A stretch of 64,000 nt of DNA from contig CAIZFE010000035.1 in the NCBI GenBank assembly GCA_903932145.1, positions 62,001 to 126,000 of the forward strand. Reading direction: 5' to 3'. A model generated the notes under the pieces. That model saw only the letters and a list, made by a program, of their open reading frames with translations. It was not told where the DNA came from and searched no databases. A program made the translations under genes and the position numbers. Every line of letters starts with the position of its first letter. Position 1 is the first letter of the stretch. The DNA is from an uncultured Rhodopila sp. Lineage in GTDB: Bacteria > Pseudomonadota > Alphaproteobacteria > Acetobacterales > Acetobacteraceae. Positions 2,167 through 47,683 of the stretch are shown one piece after another.

Positions 2167-3420
2167 ATGACGGTCATCGGGGTGGATTTTGGCACGACCA
2201 ACAGCGTCGTGACCCTGTTACGGCCGGACGGATCGGTCGATACGGTGCGGCATGCGTTCGGCATGGCGGAGATGGATGTCATCCGCTCCGTCCTGTGCTT
2301 TTGGAACGACGGCGCCCGCAATCAGGTCATTTTGCGGAATGCGGTGGGACCGGCGGCGATCGAGGCATACCTCGACGATCCGCTGGAAAGCCGGTTGATG
2401 ATGTCGCTGAAGAGCTACCTGGCGCAGCGCAGCTTCACCGAAACACGGGTTTTCGGCCGCCCGTTTACCCTGGAGGCGCTGATCGGTCTGTTCCTCGGCC
2501 AGATCCTGCCGGCCCCGCGCGCCGCGGTTCTGGTCGCCGGCCGCCCCGTCCGATTTGCCGGCGACAACCCCGACGACGCGCTGGGTGAGCAGCGGCTGCA
2601 CGGATCGTATGGTGTCGCCGGCTGGGCGAACGTCCAGACAGCGCTTGAACCGGAAGCCGCCGGCTACCGCTTCGCCCGCGGCCTGGATAAACCGGCGACC
2701 GTGCTGATCGGCGATTTCGGCGGCGGCACCAGCGATTTCTCGGTCATGCGCTTTGAACCCGCTAGCAATCGCCCCGTTCAGGCGCTCGGTCACGCGGGCG
2801 TCGGCATCGCTGGCGATACGTTCGATTTCCGCATTATGGACCATGTCGTCTCACCGCGTTTGGGTAAGGGCACCACCTATCGTCCCGGCAACACGGACCT
2901 TCCGGTACCGCCGGAGTATTATTCCAGCTTTGCGCGCTGGCATCGCCTGTCGCTGATGCGGGCACCGAAAACGATGCGCGACATCGAAGCGGTGATGGGG
3001 TCGGCGAAGTATCCTGATCGTCTGGGCGCCCTGCTGAAGTTGATCCGGGACGAACTTGGCTACGAACTATATCGTTCGGTATCCGGGGTGAAGGCGGCTT
3101 TATCCAAGGCGGAGACGGCGGTGCTGAATTTCAGCCACGCCGATTTCGCTATTGAGGAAACGATCGCCCGAGCGGACTTCGAACACTGGATCGCACCCGA
3201 CATCGCGCGGATTGCCGCGACGGTGGATCTCGCACTGGCCGAGGCCGGCTTGAAACAGGACGCGGTGGACCGGGTGTTCCTGACCGGAGGAACGTCCTTG
3301 GTTCCGGCGGTCCGCGGGCTGTTCATCAGCCGGTTCGGCGAACATCGTGTCACGGGCGGCGGGGAGTTTGTGTCAGTTGCAGAGGGTTTGGCTCTGATCG
3401 GGCGGGATCGGCACCCTTAG
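2167..3420 (+). CDS. Hsp70-family protein, YegD-like
   Basis: Actin/Hsp70-fold ATPase of the YegD type, 417 residues and essentially only the nucleotide-binding domain. The phosphate-1 motif DFGTTNS is at 7-13, phosphate-2 is GDFGGGTSD near 182-190, and the adenosine motif LTGGTS starts near 372. There is no room for the substrate-binding domain and lid of DnaK, so this is not the housekeeping chaperone. It lies 115 bases after the chemoreceptor on the same strand and converges on a PEP-CTERM gene. No DnaJ or GrpE partner is nearby. The cellular role of YegD-type proteins is poorly defined, so the family is confident and the function is not. Confidence 0.88.
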   Translation: MTVIGVDFGTTNSVVTLLRPDGSVDTVRHAFGMAEMDVIRSVLCFWNDGARNQVILRNAVGPAAIEAYLDDPLESRLMMSLKSYLAQRSFTETRVFGRPFTLEALIGLFLGQILPAPRAAVLVAGRPVRFAGDNPDDALGEQRLHGSYGVAGWANVQTALEPEAAGYRFARGLDKPATVLIGDFGGGTSDFSVMRFEPASNRPVQALGHAGVGIAGDTFDFRIMDHVVSPRLGKGTTYRPGNTDLPVPPEYYSSFARWHRLSLMRAPKTMRDIEAVMGSAKYPDRLGALLKLIRDELGYELYRSVSGVKAALSKAETAVLNFSHADFAIEETIARADFEHWIAPDIARIAATVDLALAEAGLKQDAVDRVFLTGGTSLVPAVRGLFISRFGEHRVTGGGEFVSVAEGLALIGRDRHP

Positions 3421-3482: not shown

Positions 3483-4247
3483 TCAGCGGGTAGCGGCCCG
3501 GCGGCGTGCGAGAAAGAGACCCGCCAGTCCAATCCCGAACACGGCGAACTGCGACGGTTCCGGGACACTCATAATCAGGCTCTGGAAATTGTAGGTCATC
3601 CCGTCAGACATGAATGAATCCGCTTCGGTCTGATGGCCGGCCGGTAGAGTCGGCGCCATGGCGAGCAAGTCATTGAACAACGGGAGCAGGTCAGGATCGA
3701 TGGTGCCGGTAAAACCGCTGTAATCGATATGAAGATTATATTCCAGGCTCCAGATCGCGGCCTGCACCGCCGCCGACATGGTCGCGGTCGGGTCGATTGC
3801 CATTTGTTGGTCGCCATAATTGGCCAGGCCGAGGATTTCCTGCGCGACGAACGCCGACACCGGCGTGGACGTCTGGGCATTGTTGCCCGAATGATCGTCG
3901 GTCAACGTTCCGAGGGTATAGACGGCCGTGGAGTCGCCGTTGCCCATCTCGTCGAGATTGCCGGTTGGCCCGATGTTGTGCACCAGGTCGATGCACCAGG
4001 CGTAGATGACGAACGATGTCAGCGGATCAAAGATGCTGCCATAGTTGATGGCCATCACGTCCTGCGCGGCATACTGTGCCTCGGGTGGATCGCCGTAGGC
4101 GTCGGCCAACGGCACCCATTCGTACAACGGCGTCTCGTTGGCTGACAAAGTGACCGTTTGCGCGGCGTGCGCCGCCCCTGGCAAAAATGGCGTCCCGACA
4201 AGAAGGCTGAGTCCAAGCAGGCAGGTGCGCACGGGTGTTCCGGCCAT
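3483..4247 (-). CDS. PEP-CTERM surface protein with putative Cys-Gln thioester motif
   Basis: Secreted protein of 254 residues. It has a hydrophobic signal peptide (about 8-28, likely cut after AHA) and a C-terminal sorting signal: VPEP at 228-231, a hydrophobic helix and a final RRR cluster. This is the classic PEP-CTERM layout recognised by exosortases. The mature part contains a WCID motif with Cys85 and a VQAAIW motif with Gln162. That pair resembles the Cys and Gln of internal-thioester (TQXA/TED) domains of Gram-positive adhesins. A paralogue at 46994-47683 has the same architecture and both motifs. An AAGGA ribosome site lies about 10 bases before the ATG. PEP-CTERM sorting is well supported; the thioester is an inference from motifs alone. 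Confidence 0.85.
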   Translation of the reverse strand: MAGTPVRTCLLGLSLLVGTPFLPGAAHAAQTVTLSANETPLYEWVPLADAYGDPPEAQYAAQDVMAINYGSIFDPLTSFVIYAWCIDLVHNIGPTGNLDEMGNGDSTAVYTLGTLTDDHSGNNAQTSTPVSAFVAQEILGLANYGDQQMAIDPTATMSAAVQAAIWSLEYNLHIDYSGFTGTIDPDLLPLFNDLLAMAPTLPAGHQTEADSFMSDGMTYNFQSLIMSVPEPSQFAVFGIGLAGLFLARRRAATR

Positions 4248-46993: not shown

Positions 46994-47683
46994 ATGCGTA
47001 TCCGTGTAATCACAACCATTTTCGCTGGTTTTATGGCCAGCGCCGGTTTCATCGGTCATGCGAGCGCAGACACCTTCAGTTACAGCGGATACAGCCTCAG
47101 CGGCGGTGAGAACCTTCACGTCACCGACGCTGCCCTGGCCATCGACAATGAGTATGGCGGAGCCGGACTGATCGGCCTGGACGGGTCGTACACCATACAG
47201 GCATACTGCGTGGACCTAGCTGACTGGCTGTTATCCAGCGGCAGCTACATCACTAACGTCAACCCATTGTTCAACCCAAACCTCGCGGGAACATCCAGCA
47301 TTACGGGTGACAGTAAAATCGCGGATATCAATGCCCTGATCGCCAACGGCGGCAATTTCGCCGCGGTTCAACTTGCGATCTGGGAAACCGAATATGGCGC
47401 TGCCGCCTCTTTCACCCCTGATGATTCGGGATTGCAGGCGGTGGCAACGGGCTATTTGACCAATATCGAAAATGGTTCCTGGACGGGTCTGATTGGTCAA
47501 ACCATTGCCGAACTATCTCCGGTGGATGGCGTGGCTAATCAAACCTTGATTTACATGACCGCGGATATGGATATGTTGGGCTCATCAACTTCATTAAATG
47601 CGGTACCTGAGCCAACAACGCTGGCACTGCTGGGTGCTGGTGTGATGATGATGATTGGCGGCGTGAGAAAGCGCCGCGCGTGA
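46994..47683 (+). CDS. PEP-CTERM surface protein with putative Cys-Gln thioester motif
   Basis: Secreted protein of 229 residues. A signal peptide (cut likely after ASA near residue 25) precedes the mature domain. VPEP followed by a hydrophobic helix and RKRR forms the PEP-CTERM sorting signal. In the mature part, Cys72 lies in QAYCVDLADW and Gln126 in AAVQLAIWETEYG, the same two motifs as in the paralogue at 3483-4247 and as in thioester (TQXA) domains. The ATG at 46994 has AGGGGG 8 bases upstream; the in-frame ATG seven codons earlier lacks this. It has its own promoter and no operon partner. Outer-surface anchoring by an exosortase elsewhere in the genome is expected. Confidence 0.87.
   Translation: MRIRVITTIFAGFMASAGFIGHASADTFSYSGYSLSGGENLHVTDAALAIDNEYGGAGLIGLDGSYTIQAYCVDLADWLLSSGSYITNVNPLFNPNLAGTSSITGDSKIADINALIANGGNFAAVQLAIWETEYGAAASFTPDDSGLQAVATGYLTNIENGSWTGLIGQTIAELSPVDGVANQTLIYMTADMDMLGSSTSLNAVPEPTTLALLGAGVMMMIGGVRKRRA

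Follow-up and report, generated by a model that had tools for sequence, protein, structure and literature searches.

The 64,000-nucleotide stretch of DNA analysed here, referred to as the window, carries two genes coding for PEP-CTERM proteins that resemble proteins with a thioester domain (TED). The coordinates of both genes and of their features are given in Table 1. The gene for the first protein, P0001, starts with ATG and is read from the minus strand, the plus-strand reading of the same interval being interrupted by stops. The initial annotation had recorded a PEP-CTERM open reading frame over this interval, leaving out its strand, and the predicted tail indeed matches PF07589 with 27.1 bits (cut-off 20.7). 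The N-terminus resembles a Sec signal peptide when judged by eye (GAAHA followed by AQT at the apparent junction). With a tail above the cut-off and an exosortase encoded in the same genome (a single PF09721 match, E = 2.1e-62, 212 bits), P0001 shows both hallmarks of a PEP-CTERM substrate; 25 of the 26 PEP-CTERM matches listed for this genome are above the cut-off.

A Pfam search of P0001 at E ≤ 10 returned, beyond the TED-like match described below, PEP-CTERM alone and no stalk domain. The layout that the available text of PMC4450167 gives for TED proteins, almost always with an N-terminal TED and an LPXTG anchor and mostly with isopeptide or ester stalk domains, is thus absent from P0001. 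A stand-alone open reading frame coding for an Hsp70/DnaK-like protein adjoins the gene. The neighbours of P0001 (Hsp70-like and chemotaxis-receptor-like open reading frames, named by eye) suggested no partner, nor did those of the Magnetospirillum homologue gene, also inspected by eye. A sigma-54 promoter scan of the window gave 32 matches for 31.6 expected, and sigma-70 and terminator scans around the P0001 gene remained at chance level.

Table 1. Features of the two TED-like PEP-CTERM genes and of one adjoining gene in the window.
Feature	Position	Strand	Basis
P0001, TED-like PEP-CTERM protein, 254 aa	3483..4247	minus	ORF translation and homologues; stop codon 3483-3485
P0001 signal peptide, residues ~1-29	4161..4247	minus	by eye from translation
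Cys85 codon, predicted thioester Cys (AWCID)	3993..3995	minus	PF08341 profile position 4; 172/173 aligned
AVQAAIWSLEY, residues 160-170, TQxxΦW-type helix motif with Gln162 and Trp166	3738..3770	minus	173/173 aligned; role from available text of PMC4450167, PMC6194298
Gln222 codon, predicted bond-forming Gln (F-Q-S-L-I)	3582..3584	minus	169/173 aligned, 3 more off by one
PEP-CTERM sorting signal of P0001, residues 227-250	3498..3569	minus	PF07589
Hsp70/DnaK-like stand-alone ORF	2167..3420	plus	GVDFGTTNSVV, by eye
Second TED-like PEP-CTERM protein, 236 aa	46973..47683	plus	A3 profile E 9.8e-11; ORF
Cys79 codon, second protein (AYCVD)	47207..47209	plus	translation
Gln133 to Trp137, second protein (QLAIW)	47369..47383	plus	translation
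Gln190 codon, second protein (NQTLIY), predicted bond-forming Gln	47540..47542	plus	translation
PEP-CTERM sorting signal, second protein	47600..47677	plus	PF07589 23.2 bits

The P0001 family and its distribution

Apart from a fragment of P0001, a direct search with this protein yielded just one relative, at 89%, and a scan of genome contigs with P0001 alone gave no match. Matches at E ≤ 1e-4 were found in 13 of the 193 genomes around G000, the genome of P0001. Seven of the matched proteins besides P0001 bear the motif signature discussed below (L037-L041, L043 and L046, in a count that leaves out L044, L045 and L047), and L042, L048, L049 and, in the P0001 genome, L005 match through their tails only. 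The seven genome homologues in alignment A1 keep both the Cys and the Gln162 motifs at 23-40% identity, which argues for more than chance; the invariant columns of A1 are Cys85, Leu141, Gln162, Trp166, Tyr170, Gly216 and PEP. With the A1 profile, the best 8000 of 5.8 billion candidates yielded 276 proteins at E ≤ 0.001.

A domain-only profile, A3, detected members at E ≤ 1e-5 in at least 32 of 299 genomes of the family, 5 of 398 genomes drawn from the phylum, 23 of 349 genomes from the order of G539 and 10 of 299 genomes from the order of G440, all of these counts being lower bounds because at most 9-12 candidates per genome were scored. The genome sets overlap, G000 belonging to both the family and the phylum sets. 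Named relatives come from an Alphaproteobacteria MAG, a Rhodospirillales MAG and Magnetospirillum moscoviense BB-1, and homologue protein records also bear the names Acetobacteraceae and Pseudorhodoferax. Plasmid homologues of P0001, P0010 and P0028 were absent at E ≤ 1e-5. The family carries PEP-CTERM, PEPxxWA-CTERM and VPLPA-CTERM tails, the last on the TED-like proteins L055 and L056, so the domain is common to several exosortase tail types. TED-like genes also occur as adjacent pairs, at L065 (G643:C5) and L123/L143 (G1029:C64).

The A3 profile at E ≤ 1e-5 found two members in the P0001 genome, where 12 of 21 first-look candidates were scored. The second one, also located in the window, has AYCVD, AVQLAIW and NQTLIY, all ahead of VPEP, and matches PF08341 with 13.2 bits, below the cut-off of 22.

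Resemblance of P0001 to known thioester domains

The initial annotation had pointed to two TED profiles, PF08341 and TIGR03934. The former matches P0001 from Cys85 onwards, although with 18.2 bits (E = 0.0034) it stays below its cut-off of 22, and the latter (cut-off 30.4 bits) does not match P0001 at E ≤ 10. Among nine relatives scanned with TIGR03934, just L064 was matched, at 12.1 bits and thus below the cut-off. The PF08341 match extends to 61 of the 105 family members of the first alignment described below at E ≤ 1, leaving 44 unmatched; the next family other than C-terminal sorting motifs matches 4 of the 105, and TIGR03934 is absent among the 25 families listed of the 57 matching these members. 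One relative, P0010, passes the PF08341 cut-off (24.2 versus 22 bits). Further scans matched 8 of 9 additional members and 7 of 10 proteins, eight of the latter 10 being within the 105-member set. None of 10 tail-only PEP-CTERM controls (of 21 available) was matched.

PF08341 also matches TIEpLS20 (23.6 bits), with its Cys (Cys57 in the record used) at the same profile position 4; TIEpLS20 is matched by PF20610 as well. According to the available text of PMC8092201, TIEpLS20 is an adhesin with a class II TED; its C68S mutant lacks activity, and its bond to Gln256 was modelled. The class II family of TIEpLS20 was also compared at the profile level (hhalign), 5 of 24 relatives without the pattern used being dropped and 19 kept; the match was weak, with a probability of 0.7-10.9%, and placed Cys on Cys. 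No TED chain was found in the PDB with either the P0001 sequence or a nine-sequence profile, whose matches were noise.

P0001 departs from the published motifs by a Trp before the Cys, where Y, F or L are published, and by a Val in place of the Thr of TQ. Its Cys motif therefore reads WCID, not the published form to the letter, and that of the second protein YCVD; the C-terminal ΦQζΦΦ motif (FQSLI) and the QxxΦW helix motif (VQAAIW) are both present. P0001 could be an ordinary PEP-CTERM matrix protein whose TED resemblance reflects chance or composition, as its PF08341 score and the lack of PDB and TIGR03934 matches would allow, yet we judge this very improbable given the matches to most of its relatives and to no control, the relative above the cut-off, and four near-invariant columns that correspond to the TED signature. 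By sequence comparison, P0001 looks like a distant relative of the TEDs, the "chemical harpoons" that attach Gram-positive bacteria covalently to surfaces, and not like a formal Pfam TED member; there is good sequence support for a TED-like domain on an exosortase substrate.

Gln222 is the predicted partner of Cys85

The initial annotation had also proposed a thioester between Cys85 of WCID and Gln162 of VQAAIW, in a domain lying between a signal peptide and VPEP in a Gram-negative bacterium. The translation of P0001 has both residues at these positions, and a TED-like domain does lie there, so that part stands; the pairing is not supported. It took the Gln of a Q-x-A-(I/V)-W context for the bonding residue of TEDs, which the structures described in the available text of PMC4450167 and PMC6194298 contradict: the bond joins the Cys of [YFL]CΦζ to a Gln in a weak C-terminal ΦQζΦΦ strand motif, and the Gln of TQxxΦW lies on helix 2, where it mostly forms hydrogen bonds to the Cys backbone, and is inessential for the thioester. 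The TED fold described in PMC6194298 combines a beta-barrel with three helices, its Cys and Gln being bonded. The portion of PMC4450167 available further reports that the TQxxΦW motif is present in most TEDs, not all, and that the bonding Cys and Gln are the sole fully conserved residues of the published set.

All three TED motifs occur in P0001 in the published order (C85-IDL within AWCIDL, Q162-AAIW and F-Q222-SLI). We therefore predict a thioester between Cys85 and Gln222, with Gln162 and Trp166 forming a supporting helix motif. The two residues are 137 positions apart in P0001 and 102-188 apart (median 117) in homologues with both columns filled (134 of 138), compared to 129 in CpTIE, 152 in SfbI and 153 in PnTIE (from the residue numbers available in PMC4450167). 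A single Cys is present in 105 of 138 trimmed mature regions, which disfavours a disulfide.

One homologue, P0082, has a Ser for Cys85 and a Thr in the Gln222 column while retaining QLAIW, a natural double loss. It is the sole aligned homologue without the Cys and also the sole one without a Gln at or beside the Gln222 column, and this co-loss is known from P0082 only. The invariance of Gln162, partly a product of selection, and the old motif name TQXA, which invites such a reading, would speak for a Cys85-Gln162 bond; such a bond is nonetheless hardly probable, and we rejected Gln162 as the partner, because the bonding Gln of solved TEDs in the same two sources is more C-terminal and because P0082 keeps the helix Gln after losing the other two residues.

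Conservation of the motif columns

The predicted pair was followed through three alignments. The first, built with E-INS-i, has 105 members, comprising 9 of A1 (P0002 among them) and 96 of the 120 proteins listed among the 276 matches. Visual inspection of the motif table led to the exclusion of P0003 (a fragment of P0001), P0085 and P0099 (truncated), and of the tail-only proteins P0100, P0102-P0104 and P0106-P0121. P0042, which begins at the Cys, was removed before the 138-member alignment, and L053, L059, L060, L061 and L068 repeat earlier proteins. The third, of 173 members, excludes L143, which duplicates L123, and L154, whose N-terminus is broken and which contains one TAA.

The Cys, helix Gln, Trp and C-terminal Gln are present in 103, 105, 105 and 103 of the 105 members, the helix motif being partly conserved by construction because its members were chosen by reference to the motif table. 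The corresponding counts are 137, 138, 138 and 134 of 138, and 172 (Cys85), 173 (Gln162), 173 (Trp166) and 169 (Gln222) of 173, conservation that is again partly by construction because the family's own profile served to collect most of these proteins. Homologues thus keep both residues singled out by the initial annotation. Trp166, Gln162, Cys85 and Gln222 are the four most conserved columns outside PEP among the 173, and in a weighted ranking of the 138-member alignment just the letters of PEP mix with these four. The four proteins without a Gln in the Gln222 column are P0082 and P0049, L119 and L120, the last three having a Gln one residue away.

As a means of lessening the circularity, we considered the loci for which the genome-search match stops short of model position 162, that of Gln222. 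All 31 such proteins have a Gln in the column, compared to a Gln frequency of ~3.2% in the flanking positions; the check takes in loci only. The second open reading frame of L065 (match to 160), outside this list, also has the Gln.

A TED-like fold could also exist without a thioester, with a Cys and a Gln that are retained because they contribute to packing, bind a metal or line a site for a non-covalent ligand. Sequence cannot show the bond, and known TEDs keep a non-bonding Gln and Trp beside it (available text of PMC6194298). Such a fold is unlikely, however, considering a mostly lone, near-invariant Cys and a distant near-invariant Gln that are jointly absent in one exception, and the fact that these same two residues alone are fully conserved in the TEDs of PMC4450167, as far as its available text goes.

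The Gln222 equivalent precedes PEP by 6-28 residues (median 9, n = 134), and Gln222 itself is seven residues ahead of the PEP proline. This proximity could mean that the Gln serves exosortase recognition or belongs to a common, non-bonding strand motif of PEP-CTERM proteins, since 4 of 20 further PEP-CTERM proteins of the P0001 genome and 2 of 3 PepA-type proteins have a loose Q-x-hydrophobic motif among their 30 C-terminal residues, and 7 of 21 tail-only controls have one within 45 residues of the tail. We consider this highly unlikely: all 173 family members carry the loose motif in the 30-residue stretch, and both this proportion and that of the aligned Gln are far above the controls; the Gln persists on the VPLPA-CTERM tails of L055 and L056; and it is missing in the Cys-less P0082. 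None of the 23 control proteins of the 30-residue comparison also has the Cys motif, and one, L023, has Qxx(hydrophobic)W. Loose windows discriminate poorly, 68% of shuffles passing the 45-residue version, and we therefore relied on the aligned columns; P0082 passes the 30-residue version through other Gln residues.

Comparison with known systems

P0001 shares with class I TEDs (SfbI, CpTIE, PnTIE and Cpa; PF08341) the order of the motifs, a similar Cys-Gln spacing and the fact of being secreted and sorted. It differs from them in its Gram-negative origin, in an exosortase tail in place of LPXTG, in the lack of an isopeptide or ester stalk, in a predicted bonding Gln near the sorting signal, in the Trp before the Cys and in its score below the Pfam cut-off. 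Class II TEDs (BaTIE, SaTIE, EfmTIE86 and TIEpLS20) share the Cys motif and the weak Cys-on-Cys hhalign match. They have an insert of ~75 residues before the bonding Gln, according to the available text of PMC6194298, compared to the 60 residues from Gln162 to Gln222 in P0001.

The flocculation protein PepA (NF033554) is, like P0001, a small protein with a signal peptide, a PEP-CTERM tail and a likely matrix or surface location. P0001 matches NF033554 with 18.7 bits (cut-off 80) at residues 206-251 only. We considered floc_PepA itself as a TED protein and rejected it: 105 of 105 family members match NF033554, but the PepA-type proteins L088-L090, unlike P0001, lack the Cys motif and QxxΦW. The A3 profile against the open reading frames of 30 floc_PepA loci (L088-L117) gave a best E of 0.22. 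Six floc_PepA-type genes above the cut-off lie within ~16 kb at G457:C1:1313481-1329238. Proteins of the complement C3/alpha-2-macroglobulin type also use a Cys-Gln thioester, and their likeness to P0001 would be functional only. Their thioester forms within a contiguous CxEQ motif (PMC8416519, available text) that is absent from P0001, where Cys85 is followed by IDL.

The combination of 'thioester domain' and 'PEP-CTERM' returned nothing among 5.39 million open papers, most subscription papers being outside this scope, and open-literature matches for exosortase and thioester, covered in part by titles and the beginnings of abstracts, reported no TED-like exosortase substrate. At the level of titles and abstract beginnings, open-literature searches for PEP-CTERM with adhesin and covalent, for PF08341, TIGR03934 or TQXA, for internal thioester with Proteobacteria and, among the matches listed, for Gram-negative surface proteins with a thioester domain gave nothing comparable. 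The available portions of PMC8286594 assign the fibrillar adhesins that bear TEDs to Firmicutes and Actinobacteria, and those of PMC9210967 describe further TED clusters, without PEP-CTERM. A family combining all three motifs with exosortase tails would bring Gram-negative bacteria into the range of covalent surface chemistry.

Proposed mechanism and role

We propose, with a probability of roughly 0.7, that P0001 is processed by exosortase and consists, once mature, of a diverged thioester domain with a Cys85-Gln222 bond, acting as follows. After export by Sec and removal of the signal peptide, suggested by its N-terminus as read by eye, folding would bring Cys85 and Gln222 together and an internal thioester would form with loss of ammonia, as the conserved signature suggests. 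Gln162 and Trp166 would correspond to the helix residues which, in known TEDs, pack against the backbone of the Cys. Exosortase would process the chain at the PEP tail, as the tail and the exosortase gene indicate. By analogy with SfbI, an amine of a partner, either a protein Lys or an exopolysaccharide amino sugar, would then attack the thioester, linking the partner to Gln222 and releasing Cys85.

Since P0001 has no stalk and its predicted bonding Gln lies beside the sorting signal, it would most likely attach to the matrix of its own cell or to immediate neighbours and not reach for a distant receptor; the median of 9 residues before PEP would put the reactive site near wherever exosortase leaves the chain. 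What connects PEP-CTERM proteins to exopolysaccharide is their genome context, together with a small number of genetic studies. PEP-CTERM sorting correlates with exopolysaccharide (PMC1569441), and overexpression of pepA in Aquincola decreased soluble and increased bound polymers (PMC9850573), both as given in the available text, but the PepA-type proteins L088-L090 are not themselves TED-like. Matrix cross-linking is thus the role that we prefer, though unproven, with partner and matrix role both putative.

More tentatively, exosortase-sorted thioester proteins might act as short, two-ended covalent linkers of the Gram-negative matrix, the exosortase end anchoring and the thioester end acylating. 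It is conceivable, at the same low level of confidence, that the former end sits on a surface or export-linked anchor and that the latter reacts with lysines or amino sugars, either in the matrix or on neighbouring cells. If true, this would provide concrete covalent chemistry for PEP-CTERM biology and would mean that thioester adhesion spread to, or arose in, organisms far outside the Gram-positive bacteria. Small thioester domains of this kind could be used as bioconjugation tools. If the bond is real, covalently reactive surface proteins are also made by some Gram-negative bacteria, and a three-motif family on exosortase tails would give the poorly understood PEP-CTERM proteins a testable activity.
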